This document shows, piece by piece, positions 49,920 to 57,926 of a stretch of DNA of 64,000 nt. Made by a program: the position numbers and the translations under genes. Origin of the DNA: Beijerinckiaceae bacterium (GTDB lineage: Bacteria; Pseudomonadota; Alphaproteobacteria; Rhizobiales; Beijerinckiaceae); NCBI GenBank assembly GCA_024304885.1, contig JALJOM010000003.1, positions 1,336,110 to 1,400,109 of the forward strand. The letters are read 5' to 3'. The first letter of the stretch is position 1. Every line of letters begins with the position of its first letter. Under the pieces are notes generated by a model that was not told the DNA's origin, did no database searches, and saw nothing but the letters and a program-made list of their open reading frames with translations.

Positions 49920-50900
49920 GTGCGTAGCTTGACCGTTGCTGTCGAGAGCTTTCCGATCGCGGGCACCTTCCGCATCTCGCGCGGCGCGAAAAGCGAGGCT
50001 GTCGTCGTTGTCGCCACCTTGGACGAGGCTGGCTGCCGAGGCCGGGGCGAGTGCGTGCCTTATGCGCGCTACGGCGAGACCGTCGAGAGCGAGGTCCGTC
50101 GGATCGAATCCGTGCGCCCTGCCTTGGAGCAGGGCGCCGATCGCTTCGCGCTCCAGGATCTGCTCCCCGCGGGGGCGGCCCGGAACGCGCTCGATTGCGC
50201 GCTCTTCGATCTCGCCGCGAAGCTTTCGGGCCTGCGCGCCTTCGAGATCGCCGGGGTTCCCGTTCCGGCCCCCGTGACGACGGCTTTCACCCTCTCGGTC
50301 GGGTCGCCTGCAGAGATGGCGACGGCCGCCGCCGCCGCCGGTGCGCGTCCGCTCCTGAAGGTGAAGCTCGCGGGCGAGGGCGACCCGGCGCGCATTGCCG
50401 CGGTCCGCGCGGCGGCACCCGACGCGACGCTGATCGTCGACGCCAACGAAGCGTGGGATCGCTCGACCCTCGAGCGCAACCTCGCCGCCTGCGCAGCGGC
50501 CGGTGTCCGTCTGGTCGAGCAGCCGCTCCCCGCAGGCGCGGACTCGGCGCTCGACGAGATCGACCGTATCGTTCCGGTCTGTGCCGACGAGAGCCTGCAC
50601 GAGCGAAGCAATCTCGGCGATCTTCGCGGGCGCTACGACGCGATCAACGTGAAGCTCGACAAGGCCGGAGGGCTGACGGAGGCGCTCGCGCTCGTCGCGG
50701 AGGCGCAGGCGCAAGGCTTCCAGATCATGGTCGGCTGCATGGTGGCGACCTCGCTCGCGATGGCTCCGGCCCTGCTGCTCGCGTCGCACGCCCGCTTCGT
50801 CGATCTCGACGGACCGCTGCTCCTCGCAAGGGATCGCCCGGATGGGCTCGTCTACGAGCGCTCGCTCGTTCATCCGGCCTCACCCTCCCTCTGGGGGTGA
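49920..50900 (+). CDS. Dipeptide epimerase of the enolase superfamily
   Basis: About 326 residues from the GTG at 49920, with GGAGAGG 9 nt upstream. The capping domain has FPIAGTFRISRGAKSE and RGECVPYARYGE. The barrel carries the pair of catalytic lysines (LLKVKLAG near 150 and NVKLDKAGG near 249) and metal ligands in VDANEAW (Asp174), EQPLP and ADES. The order fits L-Ala-D/L-Glu epimerases of the YcjG type, which recycle murein peptides. Other dipeptide substrates are possible. It is divergent from the transporter gene and tail-to-tail with the large helicase gene. Confidence 0.88.
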   Translation: MRSLTVAVESFPIAGTFRISRGAKSEAVVVVATLDEAGCRGRGECVPYARYGETVESEVRRIESVRPALEQGADRFALQDLLPAGAARNALDCALFDLAAKLSGLRAFEIAGVPVPAPVTTAFTLSVGSPAEMATAAAAAGARPLLKVKLAGEGDPARIAAVRAAAPDATLIVDANEAWDRSTLERNLAACAAAGVRLVEQPLPAGADSALDEIDRIVPVCADESLHERSNLGDLRGRYDAINVKLDKAGGLTEALALVAEAQAQGFQIMVGCMVATSLAMAPALLLASHARFVDLDGPLLLARDRPDGLVYERSLVHPASPSLWG

Positions 50901-50939
50901 GCGCCGGGCATCTTGCGGTGCCCGTCGAGCCGGCGAAGT

Positions 50940-53900
50940 CTATGCCGCGAGCGAGCGCACCAAGCGGTGAAAATCTCGGCTCGCCTTCTTCAGCCCGAGG
51001 AGCGCGGCGACGAAGTCCGGAAGGCTCTTGTCGTCCAGGGCCGGGTCCTGCCGGCGCGCGATCTCGATCGCGGCCGCGATCTCGAGCTCGGCGATCTTGT
51101 CGAGCCTTTGCAGGGTGACCGGCGCGGCCGACCGGTCACGCACGGGAGGCTTGCGTCTCTGCTTCTCGGTGAACCAGAAATCCGCGTCGTGGCCGAGGTG
51201 GGGGGCGGAGGCCTGCAGGTAGGCCAGTCCGCGCGCGACCGCCTCCGCGATTCGCTTGCCAACCCGCTCCTTGCCGAAGAAGGCGGCGACGCGGCGCGTG
51301 ATCTCGTCGCGATGGATCGGGCCTTCGCGCTCGATCACGGTTTCGATGAGATCGGCAACCTGCTCGGCCGTGGCCGATTCGAGGGCATGCCCGAGCGGCG
51401 TCGTGCAATGTGCGAGGGAATAGGCCGGTTGGCGGGCTCGGATCCCGATGTTCTGGGCCGGCCGCGGCGGGCTCGACGGGCTCTGCGACGCCGCATTCTC
51501 GCGCAGGCCTGCCTCGCGCCGCGCGGCGTCGAGCGCGGCTTTCAGCCCCTCGATCTGCGCTGCGCGCCGGTAGAACCAATCCGTGCTCCAGATGCGATGG
51601 AACCGCCAGCCGAGCCGCTCGAGGATTTCCTGGCGTTGCCGGTCGCGCTCACGCGCCCAGAGCGCGGAATGATAGGTCACGCCGTCGCACTCGATCGCGA
51701 GGAGGTAGCGCCCCGGCGCGCTCGGGTCGCGGACCGCGAGATCGAGCCGGAACCCGGCCGAGCCGACCTGCTTGTCGACCACGTAGCCGAGGCTCTCGAT
51801 CGCCTCGGCGACGGCGGCCTCGAAGGGCGAGTCGAAATCTCCTCCGGTCGGGGCAGATACGTCGAGCACTCCGGAGTCCGCATATTCGAGGAAGCGCTTC
51901 AGGACGCGTGGACCGGCGCCGGTCGCGCGATCGAGGTTGATGTCGCCGGGGCCGAAGGAGACGAAGACCTCGCAACGGATCCGAGCCCGGGTGAAGAGGA
52001 CATTCAGCCGGCGCTCGCCGCCTTCGGCGGAGATCGGCCCGAAGGCCATGCTGTCGAGCGGCTTTCCCGCCTCGCGCGGCCCGAAACCGACCGAGACGAA
52101 GATCACGTCGCGCTCGTCGCCTTGCACGTTCTCGAGGTTCTTCACGAAGACAGCCTCGCCGCCCGTCTCGCGCAGGCTCGCGTCGAGCACCGGATCCTCG
52201 CGTCGACGTGCGTCCAGAAGATCGCAGACGAGATCGCGTTGAGCCGTCGAGAAGGTGACGATTCCGAGCGATTGCCGGGGGTGCTGGCGCGCATGGTCGG
52301 CGGCGGCGTCCACGATCGCCTGAGCCTCGGCGAGATTGGTTCTGAGACCGCCGCGGTCGTAGGCGCCTCTCACACGGCGCAGGATCAAGCCTTTGTCGGA
52401 GCGTTCGAGGGTCGGCGTCGGCGGCATGACGAGGTGGCGGTAGAATTCCGCGTTCGAGACCTCGATCAAGGACTTGTGCTGCGACCGGTAGTGCCAGCGC
52501 AGCATGCGTGTCTCGAGGCCGCGCGCCTCGCACAAGGTCAGGATGCTCTCGAGGTCGGTCGGCGTCGCGGCGCCGCTCGGCGGCAGTGTCCCTTCCTCCT
52601 CGTCGTCGTCCTGCGTCTCCGCCTCGTCGGTGACGAGGCGATCGAAGAAGCTCGACGGGGGCAGCTGCTTCTTGTCGCCGACGACGACGATCTGGCGGCA
52701 CCGCGCGATGGCGCCCAGCGCCTCGGCCGGGCGAATCTGGCTCGCCTCGTCGATGACGAGGAGATCGAACTCCACGGCCCCGGGAGGCAGGAATTGCGCG
52801 ACCGAGATCGGGCTCATCAGGAAGACGGGCTTGATCCGCTGGATCGCCGGTCCTGCTGCCGCCATCAGCTTGCGCAGGGGCATGTGGCTGCGCTTGCGGC
52901 CGATCTCGCCGCGGATCACGCCCATGGCGCCCTGCGCTCCCGTCGGGAGCGCCGCCCGGTGGCGTGCCAGGATGCTCTGGACCGTCTCGTCGCGTCGCCG
53001 TCCTTCGAGCTCGGCGAAGCGCAAGACGAGCCGTTGATGATCCGCTCCTTCGAACGCGGCGAGATCCGGGTCGGCTTCGATCGCCGTGGCCCAGCAGGCT
53101 TCGGCGAAGGCCGCCTCGAGCTCGGCCGCGGCACGGCCCGGATCGAGCGCGCCGGACGCGAGGCCGTCGACGATCGCCGCAGGCCCGACCGCACGCAGCG
53201 CCCCGTCGGCCTGGACCAGCCGCGCCCATTGCTCGAAGCGGACGGAGCTCGCCGCCCAGATCTCCGCGCGTTCGGCCAGGGCTTCGAGATCGAGGCGGGT
53301 GATCGAATCGACGTGAAAGGCCGCGTCGATATCGAGATCGAGCGCACGGACGACCTTTCCGAGCTCGAAGGCGACGCCCGCGAGCTCCCCATCGAGCCGC
53401 GCCGCGAAGCGGGCGGCCGCGCCCTGGCGCAAGCTCGCGACGGCTCGCACGACATCCACGCGCGGGTCTGCCGCCCTGATCGTCTCGATGATCCGCACGA
53501 TGACGAGGAGGCGGGTGAAATCCGTCCGCTTCCCATGCCAGTCGGGTCCGAGGAACCTCGCGAGACTCGCCGCATCGGGGCCGAGCGCGGCGAGGCGGGC
53601 TCGGCTCTCGATCAGGGCGTCGAGCAACGCGATCCGCTCGCGGTGGCGTGACGGAAGAGGCACGGTCAGGAGGTCCACCAGGGATCGGCAAGCGTTCCGA
53701 TAGTCGGTGCTGCAACGGGCGATCCAGCTCGTCGCGCCTTTCGCGAGCGGCATGCGGAGCCGTTCCACCGGAGCCGTCCAGGCCGCGGCTCGAAACTTTC
53801 GCGCAAACGGCGCTTGATGCGCTTGCCACCGAAGGGCTCGCGTCGTGGCATCGAGGATGCGCGACAGGCTCGGAGCCGTCGCGCAAGCGATGGCCGTGCT

Positions 53901-55628
53901 ATCGCTGCCTTCGGGAAGCAAGGCGAAGAGGCGCAAGAGCGTGACGAGGCACTTGACGCTCGCGGGCGTCGCCGGCTGGTCGAGCCCGAGCATGAAGCCG
54001 ATCTCGGTCGCGGAAACGGAGAGTGCCCTGGCACCGGCGATGAGCGCGTGCAGCTCCCCGAGATGGCGCTGGAGGTCGCTGGGCTGCAGGCGGGTGCGTC
54101 GAACTCCGACATAGGGGTGTGAATCGCGAGGACCGGCGCTTGCCGTCAAGGCGGCGAAGGCCTGGGTCAGCGCGAGCCGAAGCTCGAAGTCCGCGCGGCT
54201 CCAGGACGCCGCCTCGGCGACCAGCTTCGCATTTGGGATGATCTCGCGTGCGGCCATCGCGATCTGGATCGACAGCGCGCGATAGGGGGTCATCCCGGTG
54301 TCGCCGATCTGGCGATGCAGCCGTGATGCCGTGCCGTTCAAGCGGTCGCGGAGGGCGCCGAGCTGATGGATGCAGTCCTTGCCCGTCGCGGGAGCCACGG
54401 CCTGTAGGGCCTGGTCGAGCCGATCCGCGACGAGCCGCTTGCTGGCCGACGGCCCGTGCAGCTCGAGGCAAATGTCCTCGAGCCCGACGTTGCAGAGCCG
54501 GGCATGAACGACATCGAGCGCAGCCATTTTCTCGGCGACGAACAAGACCGTCTTGCCGTCGTGAACGGCGCTCGCGATGATATTCGTGATGGTCTGCGAC
54601 TTGCCGGTGCCCGGCGGCCCTTGAACGACGAGATTGAGTCCGGCACGGACCGTCTCGATCACCTTCGTCTGCGAGGCGTCCGCATCGACGACCTGCACGA
54701 TGTCCGCCGGCGCGAGGACCTCGTCGAGATTGGTCGACTCCGTAAAGATCGGCGGCTCGCCGGCGAAGCCGTCGCAGAGGAGCCCTCGGAGCAACGAGTG
54801 GGACAGAAGCGCGCGATCGGGCCAAGTGCCGGGCTCGAGGTCGCGCATCATCAGGTGCTTGGAGAAGAAGCTGAAGCCGAGCTCGATGTCGTCGCTGTCG
54901 ATCGACCAACGACGCTTCGGCTTCGTCGCCGCCGCGACGGCCTCGAAGTAGCTGCTCGGCGTCCAATCGTCGGACTCCGGCACCGCGGGAAGCGACAAGG
55001 CGAAGTCGCTCCTGAGCCGTTCCTGCAAAGCTTGGTTCGTCGTGATCTCGTCGTCGCGCAGCTTGAGATCGAAGGTCGAGCGGCGCGGGTCGCGAACGAG
55101 GACGACCGGGACGAGAATGAGCGGCGCGTGGCGAGGAACCTCCGACCTTTCGTCCTCGTACCAGCGCAGGAACCCCAAGGTCAGGAAGAGGATGCTCATG
55201 CCTCGTTCTTCCTCGGCCGTCTTGGCGTCGCGATAGATCCTCTGCAGCCTCCTTTGCAGCTGATCGCCGGAAAAAGTCGTCTGCAACCCGTAGCGGGCCT
55301 CGCGGCCGAGCCTCTGCGTGACGAGCCGCGGCCCTTTCGGCCGCGGCAGGTCCTGGCCGACCTCCGGCGTCTCGTCCGCCGCGAAGAAACGCAAGGTCTT
55401 GCCTTCGCGCACGAGATGCCGAAACACGCAATCCGCGTTCGTGCCCACGACGCCGAGAGCGCGTGCCCGTCGAGCTCCACGAGGAGAATGGATCAGCCGA
55501 TTGCGGATCCCGGTATCGACGAGCTTCATCCGAGCCTCGGCAAGGCTTTTCTCGATGGCCGTGCGAGCTTCGACGTGCTCCGGTGCCGGTTGCCGGCGCA
55601 CCACGTGAATGGAAGCGATCTTGCCCAT
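50940..55628 (-). CDS. DUF4011-helicase-Vsr-like nuclease-DUF3320 protein, candidate defence factor
   Basis: About 1562 residues from the ATG at 55628 (MGKIASIHVV). The DUF4011 region (about 30-300) starts at EARMKLVDTGIRNRLI and contains GFLRWYEDE and LILVPVVL. A superfamily 1 helicase follows, with Walker A GPPGTGKSQT near residue 334 and a ~600-residue insert. Walker B LLVIDEASQIRPAEA is near 955, GDKKQLPPS near 986, and the C-terminal helicase motifs are NVQGDERDVIF and RRLNVLFTRAR. A Vsr/MTES_1575-like nuclease domain (about 1270-1390) has FRLDLAV, LLAIECDGVTYHSA and LGWRFHRIWSTDWF. A DUF3320 winged-helix tail ends it. Proteins of this architecture are associated with anti-phage defence. 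No partner genes are near. Confidence 0.88.
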   Translation of the reverse strand: MGKIASIHVVRRQPAPEHVEARTAIEKSLAEARMKLVDTGIRNRLIHSPRGARRARALGVVGTNADCVFRHLVREGKTLRFFAADETPEVGQDLPRPKGPRLVTQRLGREARYGLQTTFSGDQLQRRLQRIYRDAKTAEEERGMSILFLTLGFLRWYEDERSEVPRHAPLILVPVVLVRDPRRSTFDLKLRDDEITTNQALQERLRSDFALSLPAVPESDDWTPSSYFEAVAAATKPKRRWSIDSDDIELGFSFFSKHLMMRDLEPGTWPDRALLSHSLLRGLLCDGFAGEPPIFTESTNLDEVLAPADIVQVVDADASQTKVIETVRAGLNLVVQGPPGTGKSQTITNIIASAVHDGKTVLFVAEKMAALDVVHARLCNVGLEDICLELHGPSASKRLVADRLDQALQAVAPATGKDCIHQLGALRDRLNGTASRLHRQIGDTGMTPYRALSIQIAMAAREIIPNAKLVAEAASWSRADFELRLALTQAFAALTASAGPRDSHPYVGVRRTRLQPSDLQRHLGELHALIAGARALSVSATEIGFMLGLDQPATPASVKCLVTLLRLFALLPEGSDSTAIACATAPSLSRILDATTRALRWQAHQAPFARKFRAAAWTAPVERLRMPLAKGATSWIARCSTDYRNACRSLVDLLTVPLPSRHRERIALLDALIESRARLAALGPDAASLARFLGPDWHGKRTDFTRLLVIVRIIETIRAADPRVDVVRAVASLRQGAAARFAARLDGELAGVAFELGKVVRALDLDIDAAFHVDSITRLDLEALAERAEIWAASSVRFEQWARLVQADGALRAVGPAAIVDGLASGALDPGRAAAELEAAFAEACWATAIEADPDLAAFEGADHQRLVLRFAELEGRRRDETVQSILARHRAALPTGAQGAMGVIRGEIGRKRSHMPLRKLMAAAGPAIQRIKPVFLMSPISVAQFLPPGAVEFDLLVIDEASQIRPAEALGAIARCRQIVVVGDKKQLPPSSFFDRLVTDEAETQDDDEEEGTLPPSGAATPTDLESILTLCEARGLETRMLRWHYRSQHKSLIEVSNAEFYRHLVMPPTPTLERSDKGLILRRVRGAYDRGGLRTNLAEAQAIVDAAADHARQHPRQSLGIVTFSTAQRDLVCDLLDARRREDPVLDASLRETGGEAVFVKNLENVQGDERDVIFVSVGFGPREAGKPLDSMAFGPISAEGGERRLNVLFTRARIRCEVFVSFGPGDINLDRATGAGPRVLKRFLEYADSGVLDVSAPTGGDFDSPFEAAVAEAIESLGYVVDKQVGSAGFRLDLAVRDPSAPGRYLLAIECDGVTYHSALWARERDRQRQEILERLGWRFHRIWSTDWFYRRAAQIEGLKAALDAARREAGLRENAASQSPSSPPRPAQNIGIRARQPAYSLAHCTTPLGHALESATAEQVADLIETVIEREGPIHRDEITRRVAAFFGKERVGKRIAEAVARGLAYLQASAPHLGHDADFWFTEKQRRKPPVRDRSAAPVTLQRLDKIAELEIAAAIEIARRQDPALDDKSLPDFVAALLGLKKASRDFHRLVRSLAA

Positions 55629-55679
55629 GGGAATACCTGTGCCGAAGCCCCGAGGCTGCCGAGGAACAGTCGTGAGAAA

Positions 55680-55800
55680 GCCAGTCTCGAATGTGTACGT
55701 CTGATTGAATGTTGAGTAAACACTATGAATATAATTCAGTCGAATCATTATGATCAAAACGTTACGAAAAGATTTGTAAACTTTCCTCTTCATGCAATGC
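55680..55800 (-). promoter_or_regulatory. AT-rich promoter region of the DUF4011 gene
   Basis: A strongly AT-rich stretch in an otherwise GC-rich window, about 55-170 nt before the start of the DUF4011 gene. On the minus strand it holds TTGATC and, 18 nt later, TATATT, which resemble -35 and -10 boxes. This is the sort of upstream region bound by silencers or read by a housekeeping sigma factor; the specific boxes are a guess. Confidence 0.35.
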
Positions 55801-55840
55801 AGTGCTGAGGGCGGCTGAGAATATTTCGAGACCAATAGCC

Positions 55841-55872
55841 AAAAAAAGCCATCCGGCTGGCACCGGATGGCT
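55841..55872 (-). terminator. Rho-independent terminator of the EF-G-like gene
   Basis: On the minus strand the perfect 10-base-pair stem AGCCATCCGG-TGCCAG-CCGGATGGCT is followed by a run of seven T residues. It lies about 85 nt after the stop of the EF-G-like gene and isolates it from the DUF4011 gene downstream on the same strand. Confidence 0.92.
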
Positions 55873-55955
55873 CGGATCGGGCAGGTCGAGGCGCAATCGC
55901 GAAGACCGATATTCAACTTAAACTGAAAATATTCACGTGCAGCGTGTGCTGCTCT

Positions 55956-57926
55956 TCAGTGGGCGAGCTTCTCGGCGACCGCGCCGCGCGCTTCGGCGAG
56001 GTGGTCGAAGTGGCGCCGATAGCTGCCGAGCCCCATCGTGTCCGAGCGCAGCTCCATGATGAGATCGTGCAGCTCGGCCGCGGGCACCAAGGCTTCGACC
56101 TCGTCCCAGCCGGGCCAGCCGGGTCGCTCCGAATAGCCGAGGATTTGGCCACGGCGTCCGCTCAAGAGACGTTGGGTCGCCGCGGTGAAGCTGTTCGGTA
56201 CGGTCGCTGTCACGTGGTCGATCGGCTCGAGCAGGACCGGCTCGGCCTTGGAGAGCGCCTCGGTGACCCCCATGCGTGTCGCGGTCTTGAAGGCCATGTC
56301 GGAGCTGTCGACGGTATGGAAGGTCCCGTCGAGGAGCGTGACCGCGACGTCGACGACCGGATAGCCGAAGGGCCCCTTCTGCATGGCGTCCTCTGCGGCG
56401 TCATGGACCGCGGGGATATATTGCTTCGGCACGGCGCCGCCGACGATCTTGTCGGTGAAGGCGAAGCCTTCGCCGCGGGCGCGTGGGGCGATCTCGAGCT
56501 TCACGTCGGCGAACTGGCCATGTCCCCCGGTTTGACGCTTCAGCCGAGAATGCTGGGTGACGACCTTCTTGATGGTCTCCTTGTAGGGGGTTTTCGGCGT
56601 CGTCGCGGCGACGGCGAGATTGTAGATCGTGGCGAGCCGGTCGAGCGCGAAGTTGAGATGGATCTCGCCCTGCCCGTGGAGGACGGTTTCGCCGGTCTCG
56701 ACATTGTGCTCGACGGCGAGAGCCGGATCCTCCTCGAGGAGCTTGTGCAGGGCGGCGGAGAGCTTCACGTCGTCCTTGCGGTCCTTTGTCGCGATGGCGA
56801 GCGCGAACACCGGAGGCGGCGGCTCCGGGAACGGCAACGACTCTGCCCCCGACGCACCGAGGACAGCGCCGGTCGGCACCCCGTCGAGGCGCCCGATCGC
56901 CACGAGCTCGCCGGCCTCGGCGTCCGCAATCCGGATCTGCTCGCCGGCGACGATGCGAGAAATTCCGCTGACGCGGGTGCTGCCGAGGGTCGCCCCGTCG
57001 TGCAGGACGCCGCGCCAGACCCGCCCGAAGGCGAGCTTTCCGGCCTGGACGGTCTTGAAAATCTGGAGGAGGGGCTGATCGCCGGCCGCGACGCCATGGC
57101 GCTCCGCGGACTTGCGCGCGGGCGGCACGTCGTGCCGCAGGGCCTTCCAGAGCCTGAGGATCCCGTGCCCGTGCACGGCCGATCCGACCAGAACCTCGAC
57201 GATTGTCCCGGTCGCCTGATCCTTACGCAAATGGCTGTAGAGCTCGTCGCGGGTCGGCTCGACATCCTCGAGAACCTTCTCGAGCAGCTCGTCGTCCTGA
57301 TCGGCGAGCACCTCGGTGAGGTGGGCCAAGGCATGCTCCTCGGTGGCGCGCAGGCCGGCGGGCAGCTCGGCCGGCTCCGGATTGCTCGCCCCGCCGTAGC
57401 GATAGGCACAGGCGCGGACCACATCGACATAGCCGGTGACATGATCGCCCTCGCGGATCGGGATCTGCCGGAGCGCGATCGGAAATTTCGAATGGGCCTG
57501 CAGCGCCGCCTCGAGATCCGCCGGATCGGTCGTGAGCATGTCGATCTTGTTGACGAAGACGAGGTGAGGAATGCCGCGCTCCTCGAGCGCACGCATCAGG
57601 AGCGGGAGGGTGGACAGACGATCGGGTGAGGGCTCGCAGACGATGACCGCGAGGTCCACCGCGGCGAGCGCGCTCGAGGTCTCGTAGACGAATTCCACCG
57701 AGCCGGGGCAATCGACGATCGACCAGGGATCGCCGAGGAAGGTGCAATGGCCGAGCCGCAGCTCCGTGCTCATGGAACGGTTGCGAGGATCGACAGTTCT
57801 ACGGAGCGGCGAGCCCGCCGCGGCGAGCAGGGCCTCGAACAAGCTCGACTTACCGCTGCCATAGGGGCCGATGAGCGCGACCGAACGGGGCCCGACCGTT
57901 GCGGTCGCCGACGAGGATACGGACAT
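55956..57926 (-). CDS. Elongation factor G-like GTPase (FusA2 type)
   Basis: 656 residues, with AGGAGA 8 nt before the ATG. The G domain has a diverged P-loop (LIGPYGSGKSSL, near residue 19), a DCPGSVEF G3 motif and VNKID G4 motif. Domain II, III, IV and V order follows that of EF-G (DKRKDDVKLSAALHKL, GETVLHGQGEIHL and KRQTGGHGQFADV, each with family wording). It is shorter than true EF-G and lacks the canonical switch sequences. It therefore belongs to the EF-G-like paralogues whose role in translation is unproven; the true fusA is not in this window. It has its own terminator. Confidence 0.88.
   Translation of the reverse strand: MSVSSSATATVGPRSVALIGPYGSGKSSLFEALLAAAGSPLRRTVDPRNRSMSTELRLGHCTFLGDPWSIVDCPGSVEFVYETSSALAAVDLAVIVCEPSPDRLSTLPLLMRALEERGIPHLVFVNKIDMLTTDPADLEAALQAHSKFPIALRQIPIREGDHVTGYVDVVRACAYRYGGASNPEPAELPAGLRATEEHALAHLTEVLADQDDELLEKVLEDVEPTRDELYSHLRKDQATGTIVEVLVGSAVHGHGILRLWKALRHDVPPARKSAERHGVAAGDQPLLQIFKTVQAGKLAFGRVWRGVLHDGATLGSTRVSGISRIVAGEQIRIADAEAGELVAIGRLDGVPTGAVLGASGAESLPFPEPPPPVFALAIATKDRKDDVKLSAALHKLLEEDPALAVEHNVETGETVLHGQGEIHLNFALDRLATIYNLAVAATTPKTPYKETIKKVVTQHSRLKRQTGGHGQFADVKLEIAPRARGEGFAFTDKIVGGAVPKQYIPAVHDAAEDAMQKGPFGYPVVDVAVTLLDGTFHTVDSSDMAFKTATRMGVTEALSKAEPVLLEPIDHVTATVPNSFTAATQRLLSGRRGQILGYSERPGWPGWDEVEALVPAAELHDLIMELRSDTMGLGSYRRHFDHLAEARGAVAEKLAH

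Follow-up and report, generated by a model that had tools for sequence, protein, structure and literature searches.

A single-gene helicase–nuclease of the PDC-S37 family in a Beijerinckiaceae bacterium: a probable defense enzyme with a predicted Upf1/Dna2-type motor

The 64,000-nt stretch of a Beijerinckiaceae contig analyzed here (the window) contains an intact, large one-gene helicase–nuclease of a widespread family. We regard it as probably genuine but unexceptional as a defense enzyme, and consider it reasonably likely that this one protein attacks phage or plasmid DNA independently of DNA modification and with no partner modification enzyme. The initial annotation had described a large single gene with the order DUF4011, helicase, Vsr-like nuclease, and DUF3320, and the Pfam domains were indeed found in this order. 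The family is already known, as it is included in PADLOC, and the idea of a one-gene mechanism is in print for larger relatives, as given in the available part of that source (PMC3710099). What is added by this work is a likely, model-based placement of the protein among the Upf1/Dna2-type helicases with DUF4011 as the likely stalk/1B part, and the observation of a common locus next to hslO, of repeated breakage within the genus, and of an island integrated into one copy.

RESULTS

The gene and its start codon

The features of the gene and of its surroundings are as follows.

50940..55628, minus strand: gene of the PDC-S37 family encoding 1562 aa, coordinates including the stop codon, start ATG at 55628
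54729..55571, minus strand: DUF4011, residues 20–300 (Pfam at 35–205), apparently stalk plus domain 1B
54594..54620, minus strand: Walker A, GPPGTGKSQ, residues 337–345, invariant in the alignment
52914..54401, minus strand: helical insert inside RecA domain 1, residues ~410–905, by model secondary structure, at the position of domain 1C
52737..52751, minus strand: motif II (Walker B), DEASQ, residues 960–964, invariant in the alignment
51909..52511, minus strand: RecA domain 2, residues ~1040–1240, Pfam AAA_12, structure match 5z56_Q (Z 17.3, rmsd 2.3, 144 residues)
51531..51824, minus strand: Vsr-fold nuclease (MTES_1575 REase), residues 1269–1366, by Pfam and structure matches
51246..51374, minus strand: DUF3320, winged-helix type, residues 1419–1461, by Pfam; model residues 342–408 are helix-helix-helix-strand-strand
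55728..55757, minus strand: sigma-70-like promoter match, TTGATC-18-TATATT, 9/12 matches, ~100 nt before the start
55846..55873, minus strand: terminator-like site following the EF-G-like gene upstream, 12 pairs, 7 of them G-C, T tract
55956..57926, minus strand: upstream neighbor, EF-G-like gene (Pfam EFG_III, EFG_IV, EFG_C, GTP_EFTU), context only

The minus-strand frame is open over positions 50940–55916 (1658 aa), and the most likely start within it, judged from sequence comparison, is the ATG at 55628, because the congener proteins begin there and because the open stretches of loci L006 and L012 themselves open at the equivalent methionine. A start resembling MG-x-V-T-S-I is common to the congener proteins, whose start points were set by the analyst in this comparison; it reads MGKIASI in the window protein and MGAVTSI, MGEVTPI, or MGGVTSI in others. 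The G+C content of the gene (68.3%) is on a par with its surroundings, and therefore the gene does not look recently foreign. A 912-aa plus-strand frame (50913–53651) runs antisense through the gene, and it was judged to be a G+C-rich shadow frame.

Relation to PDC-S37, ProA, Hhe, and the MTES_1575 proteins

The frame matched the PADLOC profile PDC-S37 (PDLC05009), for which no cut-off is given, with 1626 bits over frame residues 119–1654 of 1658 and profile positions 4–1527 of 1550. PDC-S37 is a single-gene phage-defense candidate, the family itself being a prediction, and no difference from it was found in this near full-length match. The name PDC-S37 was not found in the literature searched.

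The nearest named relatives are ProA and Hhe. The score against ProA (NCBIfam NF058533) was 1287.1 bits, which is below the cut-off of 1500, and the profile aligned from position 347 to its end. The order of DUF4011, helicase, REase, and DUF3320 is alike in both (by Pfam in the relatives L155 and L156), while the window protein starts just before DUF4011 and misses the N-terminal profile positions 1–346, which corresponds to ~350 residues. The same cut-off was passed by a short relative (L095, 1509.6 bits) and by a long one (L156, 2089.3 bits), and it was missed also by the relatives L144, L154, and L067. A description of ProA as an anti-phage protein was not found in the literature searched. 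Membership in Hhe (NCBIfam NF042953; PADLOC Hhe) was rejected, with 883.9 bits against a cut-off of 2000 and the match split into two stretches. Hhe is named for DUF4011, and its helicase and nuclease regions are related to those of the window protein; the words Hhe and DUF4011 have no occurrence in the main text of Rousset 2022 (PMC9122126). The link to anti-phage proteins made in the initial annotation is thus upheld by PDC-S37 and by the kinship with ProA and Hhe, but it does not extend to being an Hhe protein by the NCBIfam rule.

For the MTES_1575 giant proteins a nuclease–helicase mechanism without modification enzymes was proposed in 2013, and their wHTH overlaps DUF3320, according to the available part of the source (Anantharaman et al.; PMC3710099). 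As described there, these proteins combine an SF1 helicase, a Vsr-type REase, and a winged helix with no modification subunit, as in the window protein. They differ from it in adding HEPN and transglutaminase-like domains, neither of which was found in the window protein by Pfam at E ≤ 1.

A match at E ≤ 1e-150 was present in 24 of the 149 genomes sampled from the host family. By score (1476–1674 bits), seven of the 149 had the short form, including two outside the genus (G034 and G103, both of one genus), and 11 of the remaining 17 had open frames of 1967–2038 residues in the best match. Five long loci of other genera (L155, L156, L157, L159, and L160) encoded ~350–400 extra N-terminal residues. 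A C...D...H pattern in the N-terminus of the long relatives looked transglutaminase-like by eye, with no Pfam match. Relatives were found in many phyla; the genome scan confirmed at least 518 stretches, of which the best 80 were kept.

Conserved residues and the predicted fold

Pfam gave on the 1658-aa frame, in order, DUF4011 (3.8e-36), AAA_11, AAA_12, the MTES_1575 REase (5.1e-35), and DUF3320 (7.6e-12). The Walker A sequence GPPGTGKS at 337–344 and the nuclease residues E1270, D1296, E1313, and D1315 are all present in the window protein. The proteins aligned with it come from many phyla (among the best 80 of at least 518 matches), with 17 of 82 candidate loci left out as partial, frame-shifted, or duplicate, together with the full-length L101 and L103 among them. 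The data showed that K343, S344, D960, and E961 were identical in 66 of 66 sequences (65 relatives and the window's own), and that Walker A, motif II, D985, Q988, and R1048 did not vary in the same set. In the second, nuclease alignment, from which L081 was absent, the four acidic residues were identical in 65 of 65 sequences (64 relatives and the window's own) and H1320 was kept in 64 of them, while G1436 and R1445 of the winged helix were variable among the aligned relatives. Hence, the ATPase motifs and nuclease Asp/Glu residues, which the initial annotation had regarded as intact, are so in the window protein and invariant across the aligned sequences.

Two AlphaFold2 models covered residues 1–1200 (mean pLDDT 85.6) and 1080–1562 (90.8). 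The best matches of the first model were IGHMBP2 (Z 19.3, rmsd 5.3, 415 residues), Dna2 (Z 19.0, rmsd 5.4, 434 residues), and Upf1 (Z 18.7, rmsd 5.2, 453 residues), and the top six rows lay within Z 18.7–19.3, rmsd 5.2–6.0, and 415–470 residues. DUF4011 appears in this model to be the stalk and 1B domain of a Upf1-like helicase, because the Upf1-like chains align from model residue 14–24, through DUF4011, while UvrD chains align only from 307–308. These ranges give the first and last aligned residue and not a residue-by-residue alignment, and an unrelated SF2 row (T4 UvsW, rmsd 13.4) likewise starts as early as residue 17, so the alignment ranges alone are no proof of this reading of DUF4011. 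A link between Upf1 and DUF4011 was not found in the literature searched.

Domain 1C of Upf1-like proteins sits inside RecA1, and the helical insert of the window protein would, in the model, lie where domain 1C would. The split helicase noted earlier was confirmed, but its insert, put there at ~600 residues, is nearer to ~495 (about 410–905, all helical). In comparison with the Upf1-like SF1B helicases (IGHMBP2, Upf1, and Dna2), the window protein has the SF1 motifs and the motor fold in common, but it differs from them in this ~495-residue insert at the 1C position, and in carrying a C-terminal Vsr-type nuclease and a terminal winged helix. The second model contained a Upf1-like RecA2 and the nuclease, which matched I-Bth0305I (3r3p) with Z 12.7, and Vsr (1cw0) with Z 10.5, rmsd 2.4, and 26% identity over 101 residues. 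A second C-terminal helical unit (model residues 425–482) was without strands, and Pfam recognized one DUF3320 stretch.

Leader and flanking genes

The gene stands isolated, as had been annotated, because the downstream gene, of the enolase/muconate-lactonizing type by Pfam (a cycloisomerase), converges on it, and the EF-G-like gene upstream on the same strand is set apart by the terminator-like site. The intergenic region (55629–55955) has a G+C content of 47.4%, and of 43.3% past this site, which agrees with the claim of an unusually AT-rich upstream region when compared to 68.3% in the gene. One sigma-70-like site was found against a mean of 0.4 in shuffled sequences, and from its sequence it is a weak candidate for the promoter. 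The 12-pair site with its T tract is present after the EF-G-like gene, but the number of terminator-like sites (two, with 2.8 expected) was not above chance. The region 50500–56200 had no Rfam match at gathering scores, and the fold of the leader RNA was unremarkable (z 0.09).

All 15 genomes of the genus have the EF-G-like gene, and the PDC-S37 gene was absent from the 1.5-kb flanks of the other EF-G loci examined. The cycloisomerase gene was absent from 17 EF-G loci with 1.5-kb flanks (the window, 14 congeners, G035, and G058; L268–L271 were left out of the comparison), and therefore no empty site could be aligned. In a search of the window for flanking direct repeats, the 20 families listed out of 43 showed nothing but G+C-rich matches of the kind expected by chance.

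Neighborhoods of the window copy and of its relatives

A defense-island setting was not borne out for the window copy, around which no defense genes were recognized by eye and the neighbors looked like ordinary chromosomal genes. Here Pfam was applied to the two flanking genes, the rest being judged by eye, and the genes were called by a codon-usage script.

To compare the relatives, the flanks of 27 chromosomal genomes (up to 5 kb, less at contig ends) were paired with control 10-kb stretches located 25–45 kb before alaS, which are random in that sense only. The alaS gene could be located in 33 of the 34 genomes, and seven of the 34 were left out, mostly because alaS was too near the contig start or missing. 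The scan against PADLOC at 1e-10 covered 229 neighbor and 231 control proteins. With each listed family counted as a separate protein, there were ~20 in the cases and ~17 in the controls (25/99 and 25/32 listed versus 16/16 and 25/49 listed). The number of PADLOC family models hit was 131 in the cases and 65 in the controls, which leans toward a defense role, although many models hit one protein (e.g., PD-T4-6 and GajB). Specific-looking matches were WGR_XIII, HEAT-ARM_XIII, and AriA in the cases, and BilD and BilA in the controls. The latter two (1.2e-163 and 1.6e-51) were found in the control set L242–L254, where one of 13 stretches holds a Bil-type operon or a look-alike.

Among plasmids, 328 records were matched, of which seven contain ≥80% of the protein in one place, while the phage records yielded a single match, which was partial (59% covered). 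Five of the seven plasmid records (H1, H2, H3, H6, and H7) and also H8 (78%) were opened, and three of these had gene tables. The three annotated relatives are of short-form size (1569, 1596, and 1609 aa), and, judged by product names, all three lie among defense-type neighbors. These are DUF2130, DUF4297 'anti-phage-associated', DUF87, and integrase genes in Paraburkholderia sabiae; RecD-like helicase, AAA ATPase, WYL, and PD-(D/E)XK genes in Azospirillum; and SIR2, recombinase, and WGR genes in Hymenobacter. In Pseudomonas aeruginosa a core DUF4011 gene borders defense hotspot 1, as given in the available part of the source (PMC10250203), and therefore, as far as this part goes, belonging to the core does not prevent a DUF4011 gene from marking a defense site. 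The neighbors of the P. moorei relative of PDC-S37 (L125) differ by eye from those of this hotspot.

History within the genus

The gene was present in 12 of the 15 genomes of the genus, including that of the window, and was not found in three, one of which (G010) is only 77% complete. Nine of the 12 copies stand tail to tail with hslO (HSP33) of an argD-argF-hslO run, at a distance of 3 to 1561 nt. In G006 and G007, in whose assemblies no hslO was found, a prfA-like release-factor gene lies beside the copy on the contig, and in the window genome the gene is 1.3 Mb away from hslO. In the protein tree the window copy is sister to the 11 other copies of the genus (support 1.0), while a small four-gene host tree groups the window genome with G017 and G058 of another genus (support 0.76), and not with its congeners; these two genomes had no match at E ≤ 1e-150. 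Because the two trees place the window copy and the window genome differently, the gene may have descended vertically and changed its location, or it may have been acquired separately.

Of the 12 copies, five (G000, G004, G008, G013, and G014) are intact, that of G006 is divided between contig ends and was counted as neither intact nor broken, and the remaining six are broken. The C-terminal part is lost in G001 and G003, a single internal stop interrupts the G002 copy, the frame changes in G005, and G007 shows both frame changes and missing ends. The G011 copy is split, its halves being separated by 50.7 kb; a phage-type integrase (by Pfam) lies next to one junction, and the two junctions share a 19-bp direct repeat. 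The island between them (G011:C1:3402000-3456000; L257–L259) contains, by eye, repeated transposase-like frames and polysaccharide-type genes, and the direct repeats fall inside a 'GINIL' coding stretch. Single-base breaks in draft genomes may in some cases be assembly errors. In G001 and G002 (L014, L015, L017, and L018) there is also a second, 1746-residue open frame with a PDC-S37 match in two parts, and a Y-family polymerase (IMS, Pfam) lies nearby at L017.

The dN/dS ratio was 0.13 for G013/G014 and 0.12 for G004/G005, the latter compared up to the frame change in its broken member. For hslO, argF, and argD (argD in one pair only) of the same pairs it was 0.02–0.18. The insert had the highest omega (0.17) of the five stretches compared in G004/G005. 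The low ratios despite the breakage suggest that the gene is constrained yet often lost. Among the best 80 of at least 518 loci, a list that favors intact copies, nearly all were open over the match.

DISCUSSION

The proposed enzyme would be an intact motor of the Upf1/Dna2-type SF1B class, in which DUF4011 would provide the stalk and domain 1B, followed by RecA1, which carries an unusually large helical insert resembling 1C, and by RecA2. The winged helix and the nuclease could hold DNA while the ATPase moves along one strand; SF1B helicases are expected to translocate in the 5'→3' direction. Cleavage might require this movement, or else a DNA feature (an end, a gap, or a branch, for example) that phage or plasmid DNA could expose more than the chromosome does. 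The purifying selection together with repeated breakage is in keeping with an accessory gene that is useful but either dispensable or costly.

A defense role is favored because of the PDC-S37 match, the kinship with ProA and Hhe, the invariant motor and nuclease residues, the Upf1/IGHMBP2/Dna2 and Vsr folds, the patchy presence in the host family, and the defense-type neighbors on plasmids. It is disfavored by the near-core presence in the genus at mostly one locus, by the lack of clear enrichment around the 27 relatives, by the low numbers of well-covered plasmid records (7/328 at ≥80%) and of phage matches (one, partial), and by the failure of two other PADLOC candidates in a published test. 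These two 'PDC' candidates had no activity in the model system of that test, as given in the available part of the report (PMC12409345). The initial annotation had regarded conservation as a core gene with no defense-island association as an argument against its own reading. On this point the data are divided: 12 of the 15 congeneric genomes have the gene, mostly at one hslO locus, but its short form was assigned by score in 7 of the 149 family genomes sampled, half of the 12 copies are broken, and the plasmid relatives have defense-type neighbors.

The same conservation could be explained if the protein were a house-keeping nuclease–helicase of DNA repair or recombination, trimming flaps or ends like Dna2 and kept at the hslO locus. 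The presence next to hslO in 9 of 12 copies, the purifying selection, and a fold as near to Dna2 as to Upf1 are all consistent with such a function. We nevertheless regard it as unlikely, given the three genomes in which the gene was not found (with the reservation on the incomplete G010), the copies broken in 6 of 15, the rarity of the short form in the family, and the company of the plasmid relatives. Alternatively, the gene could be decaying and have lost its role in most of the genus, the window copy being one that has simply escaped breakage so far; this would account for the six broken copies and for the three genomes without a match. The omega values of 0.12–0.13 in the two pairs, even with one member of a pair broken, speak against decay, as do the checked catalytic residues, all kept in the window copy, the mostly open frames among the best 80 loci, biased as these are toward intact copies, and the chance that some single-base breaks come from draft assembly; we consider decay very improbable.

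The fold also brings to mind a factor directed at RNA, in which a Upf1-like motor would run on RNA and the nuclease or the winged helix would serve an abortive infection response, since several of the closest folds are those of RNA helicases (Upf1, Sen1/SETX, and Aquarius). However, Dna2, which is a DNA enzyme, scores equally well, the nuclease has the fold of DNA enzymes (Vsr and I-Bth0305I), and the C-terminus is of the winged-helix type, which makes action on RNA a rather improbable explanation. A nuclease–helicase that attacks phage or plasmid DNA stays our preferred reading.

More tentatively, and with some doubt on our side, PDC-S37, ProA, and Hhe could form one class of bacterial Upf1/Dna2-type motors, with DUF4011 as the stalk and 1B, and the insert as a hypertrophied, prong-like 1C domain that serves as a sensor. 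The short form would then be the minimal complete weapon, and ProA the same machine plus an N-terminal effector, while mobile elements would break the gene, even by integrating into it. If this is true, the short PDC-S37 form would be the smallest complete machine in the group to which ProA and Hhe belong, and it would be well suited to purification, since a single chain would unite the motor, the nuclease, and the DNA-binding part without needing a partner. If DUF4011 is the Upf1-type stalk/1B part, a domain of unknown function would become a known part of a motor, and the insert would be the likely sensor.
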